Below, piece after piece: positions 4,227-15,136 of a stretch of 43,906 nt of DNA. Origin of the DNA: Candidatus Methylomirabilis sp. (GTDB lineage Bacteria; Methylomirabilota; Methylomirabilia; Methylomirabilales; JACPAU01); the NCBI GenBank assembly GCA_036000645.1, contig DASYVA010000226.1, forward strand, positions 1-43,906, given 5' to 3'. Both the position numbers and the translations under genes were made by a program. The notes beneath the pieces were generated by a model. It was not told where the DNA came from and did not search any database. It saw nothing but the letters and a program-made list of their open reading frames with translations. The stretch's first letter is position 1. Each line of letters begins with the position of its first letter.

Positions 4227-5174
4227 ATGCCATCCCCCAAGTCGAGCCGCGCCGCACTCCCCGATGTGACCATCCGTCGTCTGGAAGATCTCCTGGCTAC
4301 CCTCGCGAAGCGCTTCGGCGATCTGCGGGGGAAGGTGGACATGGACCCGCGGCCGGGGGTTACTCTTCAGGAGATCGGGGGGCTGGCCGCGGCCAAGCGG
4401 GAGATCCAGAGCCTTGTCTTCGGCCTGCGCCAGCCGGACCTACACAAGCGGTGGGGGACCGTGCCAGCCAAGGGCGTGTTCCTGTACGGGCCCCCCGGCA
4501 CCGGAAAGACGCTTCTCGCCAGGGCGCTGGCCCACGAGGCGGAGGCGGTCTTTTACCACCTGCGGATCCGCCATATCGCCTTCAAGTGGTACGGGGACTC
4601 GGGCGACCTGATCCAGGAGGTCTTCCAGGCGCTCGGGGGCAACGGACGGTGCGTGCTCTACCTGGACGAGATTGAGGCGCTCTCCTTCGACCGGATGTTC
4701 CCGGGGGAGGAGGCCCGGGCGGCCAGCCGCCGCGTCATCACGGTGGTCCTGGAACGGCTGGAGGCCCTGGCGGGGATGGAGGAGACGCTGGCGGTCGCCT
4801 CCACGAATCGGCCCGATGCGGTGGACCCCAGCCTGGTGGGCCCCGGCCGGTTCGCCCGGCTCATCGAGGTCCCGCTCCCGGACGGGGACGAGAAGCGGGA
4901 GATCCTGGCCCTTCACCAGCGGCGCGCCGAGGCGGCCGCCGGGCGACCCCTGTTCCAGAACGTGGACTACGACGCCATCCTGGCGCGGACCGTGAAGCTG
5001 AGCGGGGGGGATTTGGCGGAGATCGTCCAGCGAGCGCTTGAGGAGAAGGCCCGGTGCGAGGGCGCGGGGGAGCAGCCCGGCCCCGTGGAGACCGACGATA
5101 TCCTCCGGGTCATCGAGGACTACCGCCGGATCAAGGAGGTGGTGGAGAAGATTCGCTACGGCCAGTATCTGTGA
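4227..5174 (+). CDS. single-domain AAA+ ATPase with Mpa-like GQYL C terminus
   Basis: A 315-residue AAA+ ATPase of the p97/FtsH/proteasomal-ATPase type, expected to act as a hexameric unfoldase. Walker A is GPPGTGKT (about residues 89-96), Walker B is VLYLDEIEAL, sensor 1 is in ASTNRPD, and an arginine-finger segment GPGRFARL follows. The C-terminal helical lid carries LSGGDLAEIVQRAL. Only about 45 residues precede the AAA domain, with no OB fold or long coiled coil. The last four residues are GQYL, the same tail I know from Mycobacterium Mpa, where it docks on the 20S proteasome. AGGAG at 4217-4221 supports the ATG at 4227. It ends 9 bases from the end of the convergent Ubl gene, so it is probably part of that system. 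Confidence 0.92.
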   Translation: MPSPKSSRAALPDVTIRRLEDLLATLAKRFGDLRGKVDMDPRPGVTLQEIGGLAAAKREIQSLVFGLRQPDLHKRWGTVPAKGVFLYGPPGTGKTLLARALAHEAEAVFYHLRIRHIAFKWYGDSGDLIQEVFQALGGNGRCVLYLDEIEALSFDRMFPGEEARAASRRVITVVLERLEALAGMEETLAVASTNRPDAVDPSLVGPGRFARLIEVPLPDGDEKREILALHQRRAEAAAGRPLFQNVDYDAILARTVKLSGGDLAEIVQRALEEKARCEGAGEQPGPVETDDILRVIEDYRRIKEVVEKIRYGQYL

Positions 5175-5183
5175 GGCCGCCCC

Positions 5184-5453
5184 TCACGCGCAGCCCTTCT
5201 CCCCCGCCAGCCGCACGAACTCGAGTTGCTGTCCCGCCTGCAGCAGGTGACCCTCCGCGACCACTTCCCCGCCCACGACCGCGACCGCCCGGGGGCTGAT
5301 GTTCAGGGGCTGGGCGAGGGCCTGCCGGATCTCTGCCACCGTCCGCCCGGCGACGTCCACCTCCAACGCGTGGATCCCATAGAGGATCCGCACCGTCGTC
5401 GCCGTCCGGCCCGCCGGGCCGGTCGCGCTCGCCTGCCGGAGCTCCTCACTCAC
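5184..5453 (-). CDS. ubiquitin-like beta-grasp protein (Prok_Ub-like)
   Basis: An 89-residue protein, last gene of the minus-strand operon. After about 19 linker residues come a strand VRILYG, a helix TVAEIRQALAQ and strands VAVVGGEVV and LEFVRLAG, the beta-grasp order of ThiS, MoaD and ubiquitin. The C terminus is GEKGCA. The G-x-K-G ending resembles the Prok_Ub/PRTRC protein C family rather than the GG of ThiS. Two residues, Cys-Ala, extend past Gly87 and might be trimmed by the JAMM peptidase. The start is GTG at 5453, overlapping the E1-like stop, with GGAGG 7 bases upstream; this indicates translational coupling. Family call rests on fold pattern, tail and neighbours. Confidence 0.75.
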   Translation of the reverse strand: MSEELRQASATGPAGRTATTVRILYGIHALEVDVAGRTVAEIRQALAQPLNISPRAVAVVGGEVVAEGHLLQAGQQLEFVRLAGEKGCA

Positions 5454-6126
5454 GGGAACGCCTCCGCTCCACTGGCTGGCTCCTGCCGGCCAGGATGTCG
5501 AGGTACACCTCGCCGTACCGGATCCCCCCCTGCTGCCAGGCGTAGAAGGCGTTCAGCATGGCCGACGCCACGGCCAGGTTCGTGAAGAGGAGTTGCGGGG
5601 CCCCCGCAGCGGCCGCCGCGTCGCAGGAGGCGTCGGCGGGGGAGCCGTCACCGGGGAATGCGATCTCGGGGTGGAACCGGGTGAGGGGAGCCGAGAGGTC
5701 CCGCCCCCCCTCGCGGCAGTAGACCTGCACGTTCCCGTCTGTCCACTCGTTCCCCCCCGAGATGAGGAGGAGGTCGGCCAGCCGCTCGCAGTGGTCACTG
5801 ATCACCTTCCGGGTCCGGTGGTTGTCCACCCCGAGGAACACCACGTCTCCACTCCGGATCCAATCGGCCGCATTGGCGGCCGTCACAAACTCCGGGACGG
5901 CCCGAACGGAGAGGCCGGGGAATTCCTGAGCCACCTCCTCCGCCTTCACGCGCGCCTTGTTCCCGGCGGCCCGGAAGCCTTGCCGCGGGAGGTTCCGCTG
6001 CTCGAAGGCGTCTCCGTCCACCAGAGTCAGGCGGCAGCCGGTCCCCGCGTAGTACAGGTACCGGGAGAGCGGCGGGAGGAGGGCGCAGCCGATCCCTCCC
6101 AAGCCGATCACCTTGATCTCGAGCAT
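5446..6126 (-). CDS. ThiF/E1-like adenylating enzyme (PRTRC-ThiF-type)
   Basis: A 226-residue E1-like enzyme expected to use ATP to adenylate the C terminus of the neighbouring Ubl. The Rossmann loop is GLGGIG (residues 8-13). DGD at 37-39, N45, R48 in NLPRQ and K57 match the nucleotide and Mg contacts of ThiF/MoeB/E1. GVDNH (99-103) is the usual second acidic site. A conserved-looking Cys168 in ASCDAAAA, followed by LLFTNLAVASAM, resembles the C-terminal half of PRTRC-type ThiF proteins and is the best candidate for the thioester cysteine. There are no CxxC zinc pairs. ATG 6126 has GAGGGGG upstream; the next upstream gene ends 10 bases away. Confidence 0.88.
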   Translation of the reverse strand: MLEIKVIGLGGIGCALLPPLSRYLYYAGTGCRLTLVDGDAFEQRNLPRQGFRAAGNKARVKAEEVAQEFPGLSVRAVPEFVTAANAADWIRSGDVVFLGVDNHRTRKVISDHCERLADLLLISGGNEWTDGNVQVYCREGGRDLSAPLTRFHPEIAFPGDGSPADASCDAAAAAGAPQLLFTNLAVASAMLNAFYAWQQGGIRYGEVYLDILAGRSQPVERRRSRE

Positions 6127-6136
6127 CCCCGCCCCC

Positions 6137-6805
6137 TCAGATGGCCGCCGGCGGCCCCTCTTCGTGGATGTCCCGGGGAACCTCCTCCACGTGCAGGCGG
6201 CGCAGCCACGCGGGATCGGCCGGCAGGCCCCCATCCCCGGGGAGGGCTTCGAAGACCTCTAACGGCGTGAGGGGAAACCGGCGGCCGTCCACCACCAGCG
6301 AGCAGGCGTAGGTGGGTCGCCGATCGAGCGTCCCCACGGTCACGTGGAGGCCATCCGAGTGCCGCTCGTCCCAATCGTCGAGATCCGAGTGGAAGGCCTG
6401 GGCCCCCGCATGACTGTGCAGGGTGCCGACCCGGATCAGGCCCGGGGGGCACGGCCCGATCTGATAGCGGGCATGTCCCCCGGCCACCACCTGCTCCGGC
6501 ACCTCCAGCTCGAAGGCCGGCCCCTCCGAGCGGCAGAGGAGGAGGGCGACCGCCTCGGCCTGATGGCGCCGGTAGACCTCCCGGAAGAACCCCAGGGCTC
6601 GGGCCAGGAGCGCGGCGGGGACCCGTGGGCCGCGCCAGCGGACCTCCTCCTGCGCTGGGGCGAGCCAGGGCAGGCCCCGAGCCGGCGTGCAGGAACTGAA
6701 GACGGGGGTCCGCTTGACCAGGAAGAGTCCGTCCCGGGTGAGGAGGTAGTAGACCGCATCGGCCGGCTCCGCAAAATCGGCCCCCTTGAGATAGAGGGGG
6801 ATCAC
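6137..6805 (-). CDS. JAMM/JAB (Prok-JAB) metalloprotease
   Basis: A 222-residue protein whose second half carries a complete zinc-protease motif: His130-x-His132, seven residues, Ser140, two residues, Asp143 (LHSHAGAQAFHSDLDD). Glu84 in AEAVALLL is the likely general-base Glu. The following DGLHVTVGTLD and SLVVDGRRF are typical of prokaryotic JAB domains encoded beside E1 and Ubl genes. Such enzymes remove C-terminal residues from Ubl precursors or cleave conjugates. The start is GTG at 6805 in a GTGA overlap with the AAA+ stop, with GGGGAGGG upstream. The first 80 residues are a strand-rich extension of unknown role. Confidence 0.9.
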   Translation of the reverse strand: MIPLYLKGADFAEPADAVYYLLTRDGLFLVKRTPVFSSCTPARGLPWLAPAQEEVRWRGPRVPAALLARALGFFREVYRRHQAEAVALLLCRSEGPAFELEVPEQVVAGGHARYQIGPCPPGLIRVGTLHSHAGAQAFHSDLDDWDERHSDGLHVTVGTLDRRPTYACSLVVDGRRFPLTPLEVFEALPGDGGLPADPAWLRRLHVEEVPRDIHEEGPPAAI

Positions 6806-8520
6806 GACCGCCCTCCCCGCTGATACCGGGGGGGAAGAAATCGGCGGGAGGAGCAGCAGGCCACCGCCATCGCCTCCTGAACCCGGAGACTCTCCGCGCT
6901 GAGCGCCGGGATGAAATCCTCGATGGCCCACCGGTAGTCCGCCTCCTCTATCGCCGGCTCCCCCCGCGCCCGCGCATGCCGGTAGGCGCGCAGGGAGATC
7001 TCCTCGATGTCCGCCCCCGTGATCTGGCCGGGATGCGAGGCGTCGCAGTGGGCCGCCAGTGCCGCGAAGTCCACCCGCCCCACCGGGAAGGCGTGCTTGC
7101 GCGGCATCACGGCAAAGATGCTGGCCATCTCGGCCGGGTCCGGGAGGACCAGCGGGATCCGCTCGGAGGCCCGCCCGGAGCGCTGCTCGGCCACGTCGAG
7201 CCGGTCGGGCCGATTGCTGATCCGGATCCAGAGAACCTGGCCCTGGATGCGGGGGTTGCCCGTGAAGTCGAAGCGCATCTGCCGGAGCCGGTTGGAGACG
7301 CCCGAATCGGCGGACGCCTCATCCCGGGAATGCTCGCTCTGGTCGGCCTCATCCTCCACCACCACCACGGGGGTCATGGACCGCAGGGCCTGGAGGATCT
7401 TCCAGTAGTTCCGCTCCGACTGCCCCACCCACCGCTCGCGCGCGTTGATCACCTTCACGAAGTTGAAGCCACACTCGTACGCGAGCGCCTCCGCGAGGGC
7501 CGTCTTCCCCACGCCGGGGGGCCCGACGAGGGTGATCCCGCGTGGGACCAGCTTGACCTCCCCCTCCCGGAGGGCTGCGATGACCTCGCGGAAGAAGGCC
7601 TTGACCGGCTCCAGGCCGCCGATGGACTCCAGGCCGAACGCGGGCTCCAGGACCTCCAACATCCCCTGGAACTCCTGGCGGAGGAGCTCCCCTTTCCGGG
7701 CCTTCACCTCCTCATGGGCGAGGGGCCGGGCGCGCCCCGCCGCCTCCTTCAGCAGGCCCTCCAGCTGGACGCGGGAGAGGCCGGCCGAGGCGGTGGCCAG
7801 CTCCTCCACGGTGAGCCCCCCGTCCCGCCCGTCTCCGGCTGCCCGCGCCCGGAGGAAGGTGAGGCGCTCGCCGTGGTTCGGCAGGGGGATCTCGAGGGCC
7901 TCCACCCGGGAGCTGGGATCTCGCAGGCGTGGGTGCAGGTCGGTCAGGGCACTCACCAGGAGGAGAATCGCGGTCCCGACCGCCGCGAGCCGTGGTTCCT
8001 CCGCCCAGCGGAGGAGGGCAACCAGCGTCCCGCGATCCTCCTCCGACAGCGCGGCCAACTCGCCCGCCGGCACCAGCGTCTCGGCGAACTCCAGGATGAG
8101 GAGCACCTGCTCCTGCTCCTCGTCCGGGAGACAGAAGCTCCGGAGCGCGCGGTCCAGGAGCGGGACCACCTGGGCGGGCGCAGTCGGGAGCCGGCGCGTC
8201 CCCTCGGGCTCCCCCAGCGCCTGGGCGGCCCGCTCTCGGAGGGCCTCGGGGGAGCCCGGAGGGGGCGGTCCGTAGCCTACGAGGGCCCGGAAGCGGGCCT
8301 CGGTCGTCCCGTCGAGGAAGGAGAGACCCGCCGACCGGTTGTAGCAGATGACGCGGGCCCGATGCCCGAACCGCCGGGTGAGGAAGGTCCGCAGCAGGAC
8401 AAACTCCCCCCCGAGCGGGACGTAGTCCGCCACGTTCCCGTGCAGGAGGAAGACGGAGCCGGTCCCCGCCCCGACCTTCGCCTCGAGGGACGCGACCCAG
8501 TCCGGTGAACCATCCCGCAT
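6802..8520 (-). CDS. AAA+ ATPase with degenerate first AAA-like half, first gene of the Ubl operon
   Basis: A 572-residue protein. Residues 1-260 resemble an AAA domain that has lost its P-loop: SVFLLHGNVADYV stands where Walker A would be, yet strands LILEFAETL and AILLLVSALTDLHPRLR followed by 'EIPLPNHGERLTFL' keep the fold. The second half (about 295-545) is active-looking: Walker A GPPGVGKT (333-340), Walker B VVVVEDEAD (385-393) with an extra acidic residue, and RSGRASERI for the arginine finger (R447/R450). ATG 8520 follows AGAGGAA, and a near-consensus promoter lies upstream. It leads the JAMM/E1/Ubl operon, so it probably remodels proteins linked to, or recognised through, the Ubl. 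Confidence 0.9.
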   Translation of the reverse strand: MRDGSPDWVASLEAKVGAGTGSVFLLHGNVADYVPLGGEFVLLRTFLTRRFGHRARVICYNRSAGLSFLDGTTEARFRALVGYGPPPPGSPEALRERAAQALGEPEGTRRLPTAPAQVVPLLDRALRSFCLPDEEQEQVLLILEFAETLVPAGELAALSEEDRGTLVALLRWAEEPRLAAVGTAILLLVSALTDLHPRLRDPSSRVEALEIPLPNHGERLTFLRARAAGDGRDGGLTVEELATASAGLSRVQLEGLLKEAAGRARPLAHEEVKARKGELLRQEFQGMLEVLEPAFGLESIGGLEPVKAFFREVIAALREGEVKLVPRGITLVGPPGVGKTALAEALAYECGFNFVKVINARERWVGQSERNYWKILQALRSMTPVVVVEDEADQSEHSRDEASADSGVSNRLRQMRFDFTGNPRIQGQVLWIRISNRPDRLDVAEQRSGRASERIPLVLPDPAEMASIFAVMPRKHAFPVGRVDFAALAAHCDASHPGQITGADIEEISLRAYRHARARGEPAIEEADYRWAIEDFIPALSAESLRVQEAMAVACCSSRRFLPPRYQRGGRS

Positions 8521-8664: not shown

Positions 8665-9555
8665 ATGCACCGAGCGGCGGCATCTCGATCCTTGACCCTC
8701 CTGACGCTCGCGGTGCTCCTCGTCCCCCGGGGGGCGGCGGCGGGTCTGGCCGCGACCATCTCCCATGCGGAGGCCCGCCAGGGGGACATTCTCGTCGTGC
8801 GCGTCAGCGTCCCGGAGGCCCCCGAAACCCTCCAGGGGAGCTTCGCCGGGCGGCCCCTCCTCTTTGTTCCGGAGGGGGACGGCGCGTACCGGGCCCTCGC
8901 CGGGATCGACCTGCAACAGCCGCCCGGAACCTATTCGGTCACCCTCCACTGGCGTCCCCCGGAGGGCGACGTGACGCACGAGGTCCCGGTCACGGTGCGG
9001 GATGGGGCGTTCCCGATCCAGCGGCTCACCCTCCCGCCGCGGATGGTGGACCCGGATCCAGCAGACCTCCCCCGGATCCAAGCAGAGCAGGAGCTCCTGG
9101 AGACGGTGTTCGCCGGTTCGGACCACACCGCCCACTTCTCGGGACCGTTCCTGCCCCCCCTCGACCCCGCCTTCCAGCCCTCGGGGACCTTCGGCCGCCG
9201 CCGCCTCCTGAACGGGCGCCTCCGGAGCCCGCACTCGGGGGAGGACTTCGCTGCGCCCGTGGGGACGCCGGTGGTGGCGAGTCACCAGGGCCGGGTGGCC
9301 CACGTCGGCGAAATGTATTTCGCCGGCATGAGTGTCATCCTGGACCACGGCCTCGGCCTCTTCACCATCTATTTTCACCTGGACGCCACCGACGTGGAGC
9401 CGGGTCAACTGCTCGGGCAGGGCCAGCTCCTCGGACGAGTCGGGGCCACGGGGCGGGTCACGGGCCCCCACCTGCACTGGGGGGCGCGGCTCGGCCCCGC
9501 CCGCGTGGATCCCATGGCCCTGCTCCGGCTTGGCGCCGCACCGGCCCGGCCGTAG
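8665..9555 (+). CDS. secreted M23 (LytM) family metallopeptidase
   Basis: A 296-residue exported protein with a signal peptide (residues 1-26). An Ig-like/TapA-like strand region (about 30-120) precedes the C-terminal LytM domain (about 170-290). The zinc site is intact: His190 and Asp194 in HSGEDF, and His269/His271 in HLHWG. It should therefore cut peptide cross-links of peptidoglycan in the periplasm, unlike the degenerate LytM protein encoded at 31225. No strong ribosome-binding site precedes ATG 8665. The next gene begins 9 bases after the stop, so both are likely one transcript. Confidence 0.92.
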   Translation: MHRAAASRSLTLLTLAVLLVPRGAAAGLAATISHAEARQGDILVVRVSVPEAPETLQGSFAGRPLLFVPEGDGAYRALAGIDLQQPPGTYSVTLHWRPPEGDVTHEVPVTVRDGAFPIQRLTLPPRMVDPDPADLPRIQAEQELLETVFAGSDHTAHFSGPFLPPLDPAFQPSGTFGRRRLLNGRLRSPHSGEDFAAPVGTPVVASHQGRVAHVGEMYFAGMSVILDHGLGLFTIYFHLDATDVEPGQLLGQGQLLGRVGATGRVTGPHLHWGARLGPARVDPMALLRLGAAPARP

Positions 9556-10989: not shown

Positions 10990-11128
10990 GCCATCTCCCG
11001 GCGGGGGGCGCCCATGATATGGCGGCCCCCACCCCCGTTCAAGGAAAATCGCCGCACCGGCTGGTACGAATATTGCTGCCTTTGCTCATGACGTCCCGGC
11101 CATGCAGGCCTCCGACCATGGAGCCGCG

Positions 11129-12064
11129 ATGAATCCTTCCCCTGTTCCGCACGGGACCATCGGCCGCCTCCGGGCCCAGCTCGAGGGCGTGCTGGTGGGG
11201 AAGCCGGAGCAGGTCCGCCTCGCCCTCATCGCGCTGTTCGCCCGGGGGCACCTGCTCATCGAGGATGTCCCGGGGGTGGGCAAGACCACGCTGGCCCAGG
11301 GCCTGGCGCGCTCGCTCGGATGCTCCTTCCAGCGGATCCAGTTCACCAGCGATCTTCTCCCGTCCGACATCCTCGGGGTCAACGTCTGGAGCGCCCAGGC
11401 CGGAACCTTCGAGTTCAAGCCAGGGCCGCTGTTCGCCCACATCGTCCTGGCCGACGAGATCAACCGGACGAGTCCCAAGACCCAGTCCTGCCTGCTCGAG
11501 GCCATGAACGAGGCCCAGGTCTCGCTGGACCACCAGACCCACCCCCTCCCGCGACCCTTCATGGTCATCGCGACCCAGAACCCGCTCGAGTACCACGGGA
11601 CCCACCCGCTCCCCGAGTCCCAGATGGACCGGTTCCTCATGCGGATCCACATCGGCTACCCCGCCCCCGAGGCCGAGCGGCGCATCGTGACGGGGGAGGC
11701 CGGAGGGGTCCCGCCGAGCCTGCCGCCGATCCTCTCGACTGCGGAGGTCTGCGGCATCCAGGAGGCGGCCGAACGGGTGGAGGTGGACGTCGCCCTCACC
11801 GGGTACGTGATGGCCGTTGCCCAGGCCACCCGGGGGAGCGACGCCTTTGCCCTCGGCGCCAGCCCCCGCGCGGCCCGCGCCCACTTCCGCGCGGCGCAGG
11901 CCGCCGCGCTCCTGGCCGGCCGGTCCTACTGCGTCCCCGACGACGTGAAGGGACTGGCCATCCCGGTCCTGGCCCACCGGCTCCTCCCCAGCGCGCGGGG
12001 GGAGGCATCGGGGGGCGCCGAGGCGGCTCTCGCGGCCCTGCTCGACGGAATCCCGGTCCCGTAA
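11129..12064 (+). CDS. MoxR-family AAA+ ATPase
   Basis: About 311 residues. MoxR ATPases act as chaperones that help assemble metal or cell-envelope complexes, usually with DUF58/VWA partners. Walker A is EDVPGVGKTTLA, Walker B is IVLADEINRTSP, sensor 1 is in IATQNPLEYHGTHPLPESQMDRF, and the C-terminal lid contains GASPRAARA. Every hallmark is present. ATG 11129 has GGAG at 11120-11123 five bases upstream; an earlier ATG at 11102 in the same frame would add nine residues but lacks a ribosome-binding site. The DUF58 gene starts 10 bases after the stop, forming the classic MoxR-DUF58-transglutaminase operon. Confidence 0.95.
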   Translation: MNPSPVPHGTIGRLRAQLEGVLVGKPEQVRLALIALFARGHLLIEDVPGVGKTTLAQGLARSLGCSFQRIQFTSDLLPSDILGVNVWSAQAGTFEFKPGPLFAHIVLADEINRTSPKTQSCLLEAMNEAQVSLDHQTHPLPRPFMVIATQNPLEYHGTHPLPESQMDRFLMRIHIGYPAPEAERRIVTGEAGGVPPSLPPILSTAEVCGIQEAAERVEVDVALTGYVMAVAQATRGSDAFALGASPRAARAHFRAAQAAALLAGRSYCVPDDVKGLAIPVLAHRLLPSARGEASGGAEAALAALLDGIPVP

Positions 12065-12074
12065 CCCGGCTGCC

Positions 12075-13076
12075 ATGCGGTTCGGCTCCTTCCCCCGCGC
12101 CCTCCATCCCACCCAGGAGGGGTGGGGTTTCCTCGGCCTCACGGTGCTCCTCGGGGTAGCCGCGCTGAATTCGGGGAACAACCTCCTCTACCTCGCGGTC
12201 GCCCTGTTTCTCAGCCTCATCGTGCTCTCCGGCCTTCTCTCGGAGCAGGGATTCCGGAAGGTCCGGGTCAGTGTCCGCTTGCCCCGCCGTTGCTTCGCCG
12301 GGACGCCGGCACCCGTTCGGGTCACGGTCCAGAACGGCAAGCGCCGCCTGCCCTCATACGCCCTCCAGCTCCGCCTGGCCGGCCAGGCCGGCGGCCCGCA
12401 GCTCCTGCGCCTGGGACCGGGGGAGGCGGCCACGGCGACCGTGGAGCGCATCTTCCCCCGCCGGGGTCTCCACATGCTCCCGGCGCTCCGCCTGGCCACT
12501 CGCTACCCCTTCGGGATTTTCGCCAAGAGCGCCCCCGCCGCGCCGCAGCGGCCGATCCTGGTCTACCCGGCCCTGGCTCCCCAGGCGACAACGCCGGCGC
12601 TGGAGACGGGGGACCAGCAGACGGCCCGGCGGCGGGGAGCCGGCAGCGAGCTCTTCGACATCCGTCCGTACCGGCCGGGAGAGGACATGCGCCTCATCCA
12701 CTGGCCGGTCACGGCCAAGGCGGGCCGCCTGATGCTGCGGGAGACCGCGGGGGAGACCGGGGGGCGCCTCACCATCATCCTGGAGCGGGCTGCCGGCGCC
12801 AGCGTGGAGTCGGTGGAGGCAGACGTGAGCCGGGCGGCGGGGGCGGCCGTGGAGGCCTGCGCCCGGGGGGCGGCGGTCCGGCTCCTGGCCGGCCGGCGCC
12901 AGGTGTCCTGGGGAACGGGGGAGCGCCATGCGGACCGGATCCTGCGGGAGCTGGCCCTCCTCGACCCCGCGGGGGACGGCCTCCCCGCGGCGGGGGAAAC
13001 CCGCGTCCCGGGGGAGCGAGGCGGAACGCTGCGGCTCGCCCTCGGGGCCGGCCGGCCCGGAGCGGAGGGACGATGA
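12075..13076 (+). CDS. DUF58 domain protein
   Basis: A 333-residue membrane protein. Two hydrophobic segments near the N terminus (about residues 16-55, GFLGLTVLLGVAALNSGNN and LYLAVALFLSLIVL) precede a beta-rich periplasmic or cytosolic region. The DUF58 signature is IRPYRPGEDMRLIHWPVTAK at about 198-217, normally 'yrpGDd.R.IhW..sAr'. DUF58 proteins are VWA-related partners of MoxR ATPases. Its stop overlaps the start of the transglutaminase gene (ATGA at 13073), so the products are probably made together. Confidence 0.93.
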   Translation: MRFGSFPRALHPTQEGWGFLGLTVLLGVAALNSGNNLLYLAVALFLSLIVLSGLLSEQGFRKVRVSVRLPRRCFAGTPAPVRVTVQNGKRRLPSYALQLRLAGQAGGPQLLRLGPGEAATATVERIFPRRGLHMLPALRLATRYPFGIFAKSAPAAPQRPILVYPALAPQATTPALETGDQQTARRRGAGSELFDIRPYRPGEDMRLIHWPVTAKAGRLMLRETAGETGGRLTIILERAAGASVESVEADVSRAAGAAVEACARGAAVRLLAGRRQVSWGTGERHADRILRELALLDPAGDGLPAAGETRVPGERGGTLRLALGAGRPGAEGR

Positions 13077-15136
13077 CCTTCGGCTCCGCCCTCAAGTTGG
13101 TCCTCTTCCTGCTCGCCGGCGACGGCCTGCTCGCCCTCTGGCTCACGGGGGAGCTCCCACCCCCCCTGGCCGCCGCGGCAGGGCTGCTCCTCCTCCTTGG
13201 CTGGTGGGCCGAGCCGCTCCGGAGCCGCGGCCTCCCCCCCACCCCCCTCCTCGCGGCGATCCCCGGCCTGCTCGCCATCGGGGCAATCCTCGATTTCCTG
13301 TTCGCGGCCGAGGCCCTCCTCATTGTGGCCGTCCGCCTCCTCCTCGGCCTCACCCTCTACACCTGCTGGACGATGCGGACACCGCAGGATCGGTGGCGGC
13401 TCGCCCTCCTGAGTCTGATGGCGGTGGTCGCGGCGGCGGGTCTCACGACCCGGCCGGCCTTCCTCGCCGCCTTCGCCGCAGCCGGCCTGCTCAGCGTCTG
13501 GGTCCTCGCCCTCCTGCATCTCGAAGGGGCAGCTCCCCCGGCGGCGGGCCTCTGGGCGCGCCGCGACGTGGCGACGGCCGGCTTCTTCCTGGGGACCGGC
13601 CTGCTTGCCTTCACTGCCTTCGCCCTCACCGCCCTGTTCTTTGTGCTCCTCCCGCGCCTGGGGGGGAGCCTCGCCCTCGGACCGGGCGGAGGGGCGAGCG
13701 CCACCGGCTTCGCCGAGCGCGTCACGCTCGGGACATTCGGCCGCCTCACCCAGGACGAGACGGTGATCCTCCGAGTGGCCTTCCCCGAGGGCCGGCCGGG
13801 GGGGCGGATCTACTGGCGGGGACTCGCTCTCGACACGTTTGACGGGGAGGGCTGGGACCAACGCGACGCCCGGCGAATGCCGCTCGCCAGGCTCCCGAAT
13901 GGCTTCACCCCGGTCGCGCGCCCCCGCTCGCGTCGGCTCCTCCGCCAGGAGATCTCGCGGGAGGCGCTGGACACCCGGGTCCTGTTCGGCGCGGGCTGGC
14001 CGGTGGCACTGTCCGGCCTCCCTCCGGGCCTGAGCCAGGACACGGGGGGCGCCCTCTACCTGCCCGCGGGGCGCGCCGTCCCGATTCAGTACGTGGTCCT
14101 CTCGGATCCGACCCCCCCCGGCGACGGGGAGCAGGCCCTCCCGACAGCCGAGCGCGAACGCCACCTCACCCTCCCATCCCTCGACCCCGCGATTCCCGCC
14201 CTCGCCCGGGAGGTCGCCGGCGCGGGGGCGACTCCCGCGGAGGCAGCCGCCCGGGTCGAGGCGTACCTCTCTACCCAGTTCACCTACAGCCTGGACCTCA
14301 CCCGGCCGGCCGGCCGGGGGATCCTGGAGGACTTCCTCTTCGGGCGGCGGGAGGGGTACTGCGAGGTATTCGCGACCGCGCTGGCGGTGCTGCTCCGGAG
14401 CCTGGGGATCCCGGCGCGGCTGGTGGTGGGCTTCCTCGACGGGACCTGGAACGAATACGGGGAGTACCTGGCGGTCCGGCAGGCGGACGCGCACGCCTGG
14501 GTGGAGGCGTTCCTGCCGGGCGAGGGATGGCGGACGTTCGATCCCTCCCCGCGGGCTGCCTTCGACGCCGCCCGACCGCCCCCACTCCTCGGAGGAGCCG
14601 GAGGCTACCTCGATTTCCTGTGGCTCCGCTGGAACCGCTACGTGGTGGGCTTCTCGGACGCGGACCAGCTCGGGCTCGCCGTGCGCCTGCGCGCCCAGTC
14701 TTTCGGCTGGGGCGAGGAGGCTGCCCGCGGGTGGGAGCGGCTGCGGGCCGCGGCGAGGGCAGCGCGGCCGGTCCTCCTCCTGGTCCTGGCCGCCGCGGTC
14801 GGCGCGGCGGGCCTTCTCGCCTGGCGGCGGAGGGGATCGGGCACCCCGGCTCGCTCAACTGCCGCTGCCCCGACCCCTTTTTACGCTCTCGCCCTCCGGC
14901 GCGTGAAGCGTGCCGGCTTCCCGAAGCCGCCTGGCCTCACCCCCGCCGAGTTCGCCGAGTCGGTCGTGAGCCGAGGCGGGGAACCCTTCACCCCGCTGCG
15001 GGAGCTGACGCTCGCCTACTACGCCGCCCGGTTCGGGGGAGTGCGCCTGTCGGCAGAGGCGGAAACCCGCCTCCTCGCCCTCGCCCGGGCTCTCCCCCGC
15101 CGCCCCCTCGCTCCCCTCCCCCGACGGACCCGGTAG
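13073..15136 (+). CDS. transglutaminase-like membrane protein (TgpA family)
   Basis: A 687-residue protein with about six N-terminal membrane segments (residues 1-200) and a periplasmic loop. The transglutaminase-like core carries the triad Cys430 in GYCEVFATA, His474 in DAHAWVEAF and Asp490 in TFDPSP. Another membrane helix follows near residue 565, and a C-terminal DUF4129-like tail (FYALALRRVKRAGF, LTLAYYAARFGG). This is the TgpA (DUF3488) layout. The ATG at 13073 overlaps the DUF58 stop, with GGAGGGA just before it. TgpA-type proteins are thought to act on envelope proteins or peptidoglycan; the substrate is unknown. It meets rpe tail to tail with 4 bases between stops. Confidence 0.94.
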   Translation: MTFGSALKLVLFLLAGDGLLALWLTGELPPPLAAAAGLLLLLGWWAEPLRSRGLPPTPLLAAIPGLLAIGAILDFLFAAEALLIVAVRLLLGLTLYTCWTMRTPQDRWRLALLSLMAVVAAAGLTTRPAFLAAFAAAGLLSVWVLALLHLEGAAPPAAGLWARRDVATAGFFLGTGLLAFTAFALTALFFVLLPRLGGSLALGPGGGASATGFAERVTLGTFGRLTQDETVILRVAFPEGRPGGRIYWRGLALDTFDGEGWDQRDARRMPLARLPNGFTPVARPRSRRLLRQEISREALDTRVLFGAGWPVALSGLPPGLSQDTGGALYLPAGRAVPIQYVVLSDPTPPGDGEQALPTAERERHLTLPSLDPAIPALAREVAGAGATPAEAAARVEAYLSTQFTYSLDLTRPAGRGILEDFLFGRREGYCEVFATALAVLLRSLGIPARLVVGFLDGTWNEYGEYLAVRQADAHAWVEAFLPGEGWRTFDPSPRAAFDAARPPPLLGGAGGYLDFLWLRWNRYVVGFSDADQLGLAVRLRAQSFGWGEEAARGWERLRAAARAARPVLLLVLAAAVGAAGLLAWRRRGSGTPARSTAAAPTPFYALALRRVKRAGFPKPPGLTPAEFAESVVSRGGEPFTPLRELTLAYYAARFGGVRLSAEAETRLLALARALPRRPLAPLPRRTR

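Follow-up and report, generated by a model that had tools for sequence, protein, structure and literature searches.

Conjugation of beta-grasp ubiquitin-like proteins (Ubls) in bacteria has been demonstrated mainly for defence systems. Iyer, Burroughs and Aravind (2006, PMC1779556) predicted type-6d operons, in which a JAB peptidase with an N-terminal domain and a separate E1 are encoded alongside a small Ubl, whose C-terminal Gly is conserved, and an E2-like protein with a conserved Cys. The PRTRC systems of proteobacterial plasmids (proteins A, B, C, and ThiF; families Prok-E2_D, PF14460, and Prok_Ub, PF14454) carry their genes in the order B-A-ThiF, and no functional study of the 6d/PRTRC class turned up in the literature that we searched. 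In the Caldiarchaeum ubiquitin operon (CsUb/E1/E2/E3/CsRpn11; PMC6043591), an E1 and an E2 are encoded together with a JAMM peptidase that matures a Ubl precursor with a short tail past its reactive Gly. Here we describe a four-gene operon (AAA-B, JAMM, E1, and Ubl) in a 43,906-nucleotide stretch of DNA from a Candidatus Methylomirabilis genome (contig C226 of genome G000; hereafter, the window). On balance, we favor the view that this operon encodes a chromosomal pathway of Ubl conjugation and deconjugation, a relative of the type-6d and PRTRC systems, with AAA-B as its dedicated Cdc48-like ATPase and with an E2-like protein supplied either by the operon or by a second locus; AAA-A, a neighboring ATPase gene, would be separate from it.

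Gene content and conservation of the operon

Methylomirabilota (NC10) are little-studied bacteria of soil and groundwater, and the window belongs to a metagenome-assembled genome (MAG) of 2.67 Mb that is 97% complete. As laid out in a preliminary description of the window, four genes lie on the minus strand: AAA-B (positions 6802 to 8520, 572 aa), the first gene of the operon; a JAMM/JAB metallopeptidase (6137 to 6805, 222 aa) made up of an N-terminal extension and a JAB domain; an E1-like (ThiF) enzyme (5446 to 6126, 226 aa); and the Ubl (5184 to 5453, 89 aa). AAA-B and JAMM overlap by 4 bp, JAMM and E1 are separated by 10 bases, and E1 and Ubl overlap by 8 bp, while AAA-A runs convergently on the plus strand and ends 9 bp from the Ubl stop.

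A survey of 95 Methylomirabilota genomes, which are fragmented MAGs, identified JAMM orthologues in 17, all within one order and distributed over five of its families (an 18th match, in G066, was weak and was left out of this count). Since the orthologues in these 17 genomes are intact, share 46 to 66% identity, and keep their gene order, the operon is not a chance arrangement, and the conserved neighborhood that the preliminary description had presupposed is indeed present. The order AAA-B/(E2-like)/JAMM/E1/Ubl recurs over several families, and AAA-B heads the operon in all module neighborhoods long enough to include it; its standing as a dedicated ATPase and constant partner of the Ubl module is supported.

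Both ATPases score above the Pfam AAA cut-off (74.6/93.6 bits). AAA-B consists of a degenerate N-terminal AAA-like half followed by a Cdc48/VCP-type AAA domain, with Walker A (GPPGVGKT), Walker B (VVxEDEAD), and an Arg pair (RSGRxSERIP), and its nearest PDB relatives are Cdc48/VCP. The E1 exceeds the Pfam ThiF cut-off at 78.6 bits and can be aligned collinearly with the Methylomonas PRTRC ThiF through to the C-terminus; Cys168, previously put forward as a candidate, and the GxGG motif are invariant throughout PRTRC-type E1s. An E1 of this type is present in a single copy per genome and is located at the operon (locus 1). Although the JAMM falls below the Pfam Prok-JAB cut-off (20.2 versus 25 bits), alignment with PRTRC_A and plasmid JABs confirmed that its catalytic E, HSH, S, and D residues (HSHx7SxxD) are intact; its nearest curated model is PRTRC_A.

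The sole Pfam match of the Ubl is ThiS, at 18.7 bits and thus under the cut-off of 22.5, and a PF14454 search of the window genome was uninformative, since neither it nor its controls gave a match. A structural model built from eight orthologues had a mean predicted local distance difference test (pLDDT) score of 66.6 (~78 in the core), and its best PDB matches were MoaD (the top match), TtuB, NEDD8, SUMO, and ubiquitin, with a probability of 1.00 and E values of 2e-3 to 1e-2. The beta-grasp fold proposed for this protein is therefore, as far as a model can tell, well supported but not proven. The end of the Ubl core, LEFVRLAGEKG, is invariant among relatives, and what follows it ranges from nothing in several relatives to up to ~25 residues in others; in the window, the conserved Lys-Gly is followed by Cys-Ala (residues 86 to 89; positions 5187 to 5198, minus strand), a tail that is presumably removable. 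PRTRC_C likewise terminates in Lys-Gly, and on Alicyclobacillus and Rubrobacter plasmids a Ubl-like segment is fused to a JAMM at a KKG junction.

Among the features of a type-6d operon are adjacent JAB and E1 genes and a small beta-grasp Ubl whose C-terminal Gly is conserved, and the operon has these, with a Ubl that is probably of this fold. It differs from type 6d in having a Cdc48-like tandem AAA protein at its head, whereas the 6d passage of PMC1779556 mentions no AAA partner; no candidate for the alpha-helical 6d partner protein was found within the operon, and no further gene lies between its genes. With PRTRC systems it shares gene order, the Lys-Gly end of the Ubl, and an E1 that is similar from end to end, including the Cys. 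Unlike them, it is chromosomal and includes AAA-B, and its proteins score under all curated cut-offs (NCBIfam PRTRC ThiF, 46.5 versus 144.75 bits; PRTRC A, 29.2 versus 101.8 bits), with no match to the curated PRTRC models for either the Ubl or the E2-like protein described below. ParB and PRTRC D, E, and F were not seen within the operon or its conserved order, although not every gene flanking the various loci was compared with the PRTRC models. Because the proteins fall short of the curated cut-offs and ParB and D/E/F were not seen, we did not file the operon as PRTRC, which agrees with the earlier statement that PRTRC partners are absent; that statement nevertheless needs amending, as the nearest known relatives are PRTRC A, B, C, and ThiF, and the operon is probably akin to the type-6d/PRTRC systems. 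The Caldiarchaeum operon resembles it in having an E1, an E2, a JAMM, and a Ubl with a short tail but differs in that no E3 was found here, the Ubl ends in Lys-Gly, and the sequence families are bacterial.

An E2-like gene at two loci

In families f2, f4, and f6 and in part of f3, AAA-B and JAMM are separated by a gene encoding ~260 aa, which is missing from the operon in the window genus (4/4 genomes) and in G008 and G013. The protein has no Pfam match (one unrelated sub-threshold match was disregarded), and a PDB profile search with it was empty. Its profile does align end to end with that of PRTRC protein B (Prok-E2_D). An earlier hhalign comparison of few sequences gave a weak result (probability, 10%; E value, 0.003); the final comparison, which took 17 and 11 sequences and included shuffled controls, scored 31.4, whereas 60 column shuffles did not exceed 19.0 and the reversed control scored 16.6. 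Since the HHsuite probability was only 23%, we label the protein E2-like, with moderate confidence. Residue C157, within the motif ACLRGRP, is kept in every NC10 member read, paralogues included, and falls near the PRTRC_B cysteine.

A search with the E2-like alignment found paralogues elsewhere in many module genomes, among them one in the window genome (G000:C215:42746-43528, 45% identity). The window genus has thus lost the operon copy and has a paralogue on another contig, so the preliminary claim that there is no E2 is true of the window operon and not of the genome; in most relatives, the operon itself has the E2-like gene. The second locus (locus 2; L051, L052, L054 to L060, L062, and L063) comprises one or two E2-like genes, frequently accompanied by a Ubl, protein X (111 aa), protein Y (~460 aa, with no Pfam match), and a TPR protein, and DUF4177-like proteins also occur there; no E1 and no JAMM was found at this locus. 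Adjoining the E2-like gene in the window genus is a gene for a ChlI/MoxR-type AAA protein, in G015 (L058) a VWA gene is present, and in G003 and G002 (L062 and L063) the Ubl is fused in frame to protein X after AGEKG.

Losses at the two loci are complementary. The E2-like gene is gone from locus 1 in the window genus and present at locus 2 in 3/4 of its genomes, and in G001 and G003 (f2) there is no Ubl at locus 1 and a Ubl at locus 2. Because each missing part is found at locus 2, the two loci are probably one pathway. Locus 1 is also carried by 12 of the 14 genomes with locus 2 (Fisher p = 0.0005, not corrected for phylogeny), and within family f6 the co-occurrence has a p value of 0.029. 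The module differs from the type-6d operons in that its E2-like gene has a second copy at another locus and in that some lineages no longer have the operon copy. Three features, namely, its AAA-B partner, the second locus, and the pattern of complementary losses, lead us to regard the module as new within a known class. It is carried on the chromosome of a lineage that also has a Pup-proteasome, comes with a dedicated Cdc48-like ATPase, and is divided between two loci. This division makes it possible to ask whether a single E1 works with Ubl and E2-like proteins from another locus.

AAA-A and the Pup-proteasome

AAA-A (4227 to 5174, plus strand, 315 aa) is a Cdc48/PAN-like ATPase with a short N-terminal helix and only ~35 to 45 residues preceding its single AAA domain. 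It ends in KIRYGQYL (GQYL at 5160 to 5171), a terminus kept in 31/31 orthologue tails read. Through a GQYL motif, in which the Gln is freely changeable, Mpa/ARC and Bpa/PafE bind to the bacterial 20S core and open it (PMC6017811, PMC12288473); the complete ARC tails that we read have GHYL instead. Like Mpa/ARC, AAA-A is an AAA ring ATPase from a phylum with a Pup-proteasome, but it has no ARC N-terminal domains and reaches only 74.6 bits with the ARC model TIGR03689 (cut-off, 504.75). Orthologues (L038 to L044 and L067 to L086) are found in 68/95 genomes, mostly without the Ubl operon, and in G001 and G002 (L041 and L042) AAA-A runs convergently toward a gene for Pup (...YVQRGGE). A Pup ligase is present in 78/95 genomes, and most have further proteasome-family genes beyond HslV.

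The window genome encodes an ARC of its own, which terminates in GHYL, and a fragment of Dop/PafA lies at the end of one of its contigs. No 20S subunit genes were found in the four window-genus assemblies, apparently due to contig breaks within the Pup-proteasome operon, as in G008. Such breaks, within or beside that operon, were seen at G000:C139 (L032), the end of G000:C4 (L045), and the ends of G008:C4 and C16 (L033 and L034). G008 has two ARC genes, one of which adjoins a cysteine desulfurase-like gene.

In five f3 genomes (G008, G013, G010, G014, and G011), the module is intact and only remnants of AAA-A persist beside it. In two neighborhoods (L028:11705-11908 and L025:2678-2881), the AAA domain has been deleted and the N-terminal helix and GQYL tail are joined in frame in a 67-aa open reading frame; the G008 and G013 versions of this deletion product differ by 6 synonymous and 6 non-synonymous changes. 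Tail remnants are also found in L029 to L031.

The GQYL tail, wide distribution, Pup neighbors, and decay beside intact modules make AAA-A most likely a separate proteasome ATPase that stands outside the Ubl module, and we rejected it as the unfoldase of that module on the grounds of its distribution in the phylum, its decay, and its adjacency to Pup. The pairing of the pathway with two unfoldases, as first described, accordingly reduces to one, AAA-B. The location of AAA-A beside the operon probably dates back to f1/f3 and may be incidental. AAA-A, a GQYL ATPase found across the phylum, differs from Mpa/ARC, Bpa, and Cpa and is a candidate new bacterial proteasome regulator.

Proposed pathway and alternative readings

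From the anatomy of the operon and the literature on 6d operons (the passage in PMC1779556) and CsRpn11 (PMC6043591), we infer the following reactions, with action of the E2-like protein in trans where the operon copy is gone. JAMM would trim the Ubl back to its conserved Lys-Gly end, after which the E1 would adenylate the terminal Gly and form a thioester on Cys168. The E2-like protein, made from the operon in most relatives and from the unlinked second locus in the window genus, would then hand the Ubl to targets by way of C157. AAA-B would unfold or remodel the Ubl-tagged proteins, and JAMM, acting as a deconjugase, would later strip the Ubl from targets.

Several observations weigh against this pathway. 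The Ubl ends in Lys-Gly rather than Gly-Gly. The AlphaFold model of the E2-like protein is poor (pLDDT, 55.9), and a Foldseek search with it gave nothing meaningful; as there is no Pfam match either, the E2 assignment is based on a profile similarity that is weak, the position of the gene, and a single Cys. G016 (95% complete) has no E2-like gene anywhere, and the two genomes in which locus 2 is present but locus 1 is not are G002 (82% complete) and G009 (68% complete).

It is conceivable, though in our judgment improbable, that AAA-A serves the Ubl pathway after all, passing Ubl-tagged proteins to the 20S core so that Pup and a beta-grasp Ubl feed one protease. AAA-A has a 20S docking motif at its terminus, lies in convergent adjacency to the operon in 4/4 window-genus genomes and one gene away in G012 (another family), and has left remnants by the module in the five f3 genomes; moreover, eukaryotic Rpn11-type JAMMs work at proteasomal ATPases (PMC6043591). 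Its distribution speaks otherwise (68/95 genomes versus 17/95 for the module), with no correlation within the order (AAA-A in 7/17 genomes with the module and 4/18 without; p = 0.29), as do its decay beside intact modules, its Pup neighbors in G001 and G002, and the core 20S genes not found in the four window-genus assemblies. Slightly more doubtful still is the arrangement in which Pup and a true beta-grasp Ubl are independent tags that meet at one 20S, via ARC and AAA-A, respectively; if true, it would be a bacterial counterpart of the ubiquitin-proteasome system.

An unlikely reading of the Ubl itself is that it is a ThiS/MoaD-like sulfur carrier, with a JAMM that, like Mec+, hydrolyses an aminoacyl-carrier adduct and with no protein conjugation. 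The conserved neighborhood lacks a sulfurtransferase, rhodanese, or cofactor gene and instead contains a dedicated unfoldase and an E2-like gene whose Cys is invariant, and in the 6d/PRTRC relatives JAMM and Ubl are fused or adjacent; these features argue for conjugation even though ThiS is the only Pfam match of the Ubl, MoaD its top fold match, and the E1 ThiF-like. We give equally little credence to anti-phage defence of the kind represented by the cyclic-oligonucleotide-based antiphage signaling system (CBASS) Cap2/Cap3 or by Bil/Bub. The E1 weakly matches PADLOC E1-E2 and BilD (best E value, 2e-6) and the Cap2/BubCD structures, and the module is patchy in family f6 (3/15). PADLOC gave no match for JAMM or Ubl, however, and matched the ATPases only as generic AAA proteins; no gene recognised as a sensor or effector was found, and the families retain their own chromosomal context, with a divergence that fits shared descent and losses.

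The genes flanking the operon and AAA-A in the window, at 295 to 2723 and 8665 to 9555, are ordinary (SLT/LysM transglycosylase, LexA, and M23 peptidase), and the transglycosylase upstream of AAA-A is also found in family f3. Further along, positions 11102 to 15136 hold a row of MoxR AAA, DUF58, and TgpA-type transglutaminase genes, a cluster common in bacteria.

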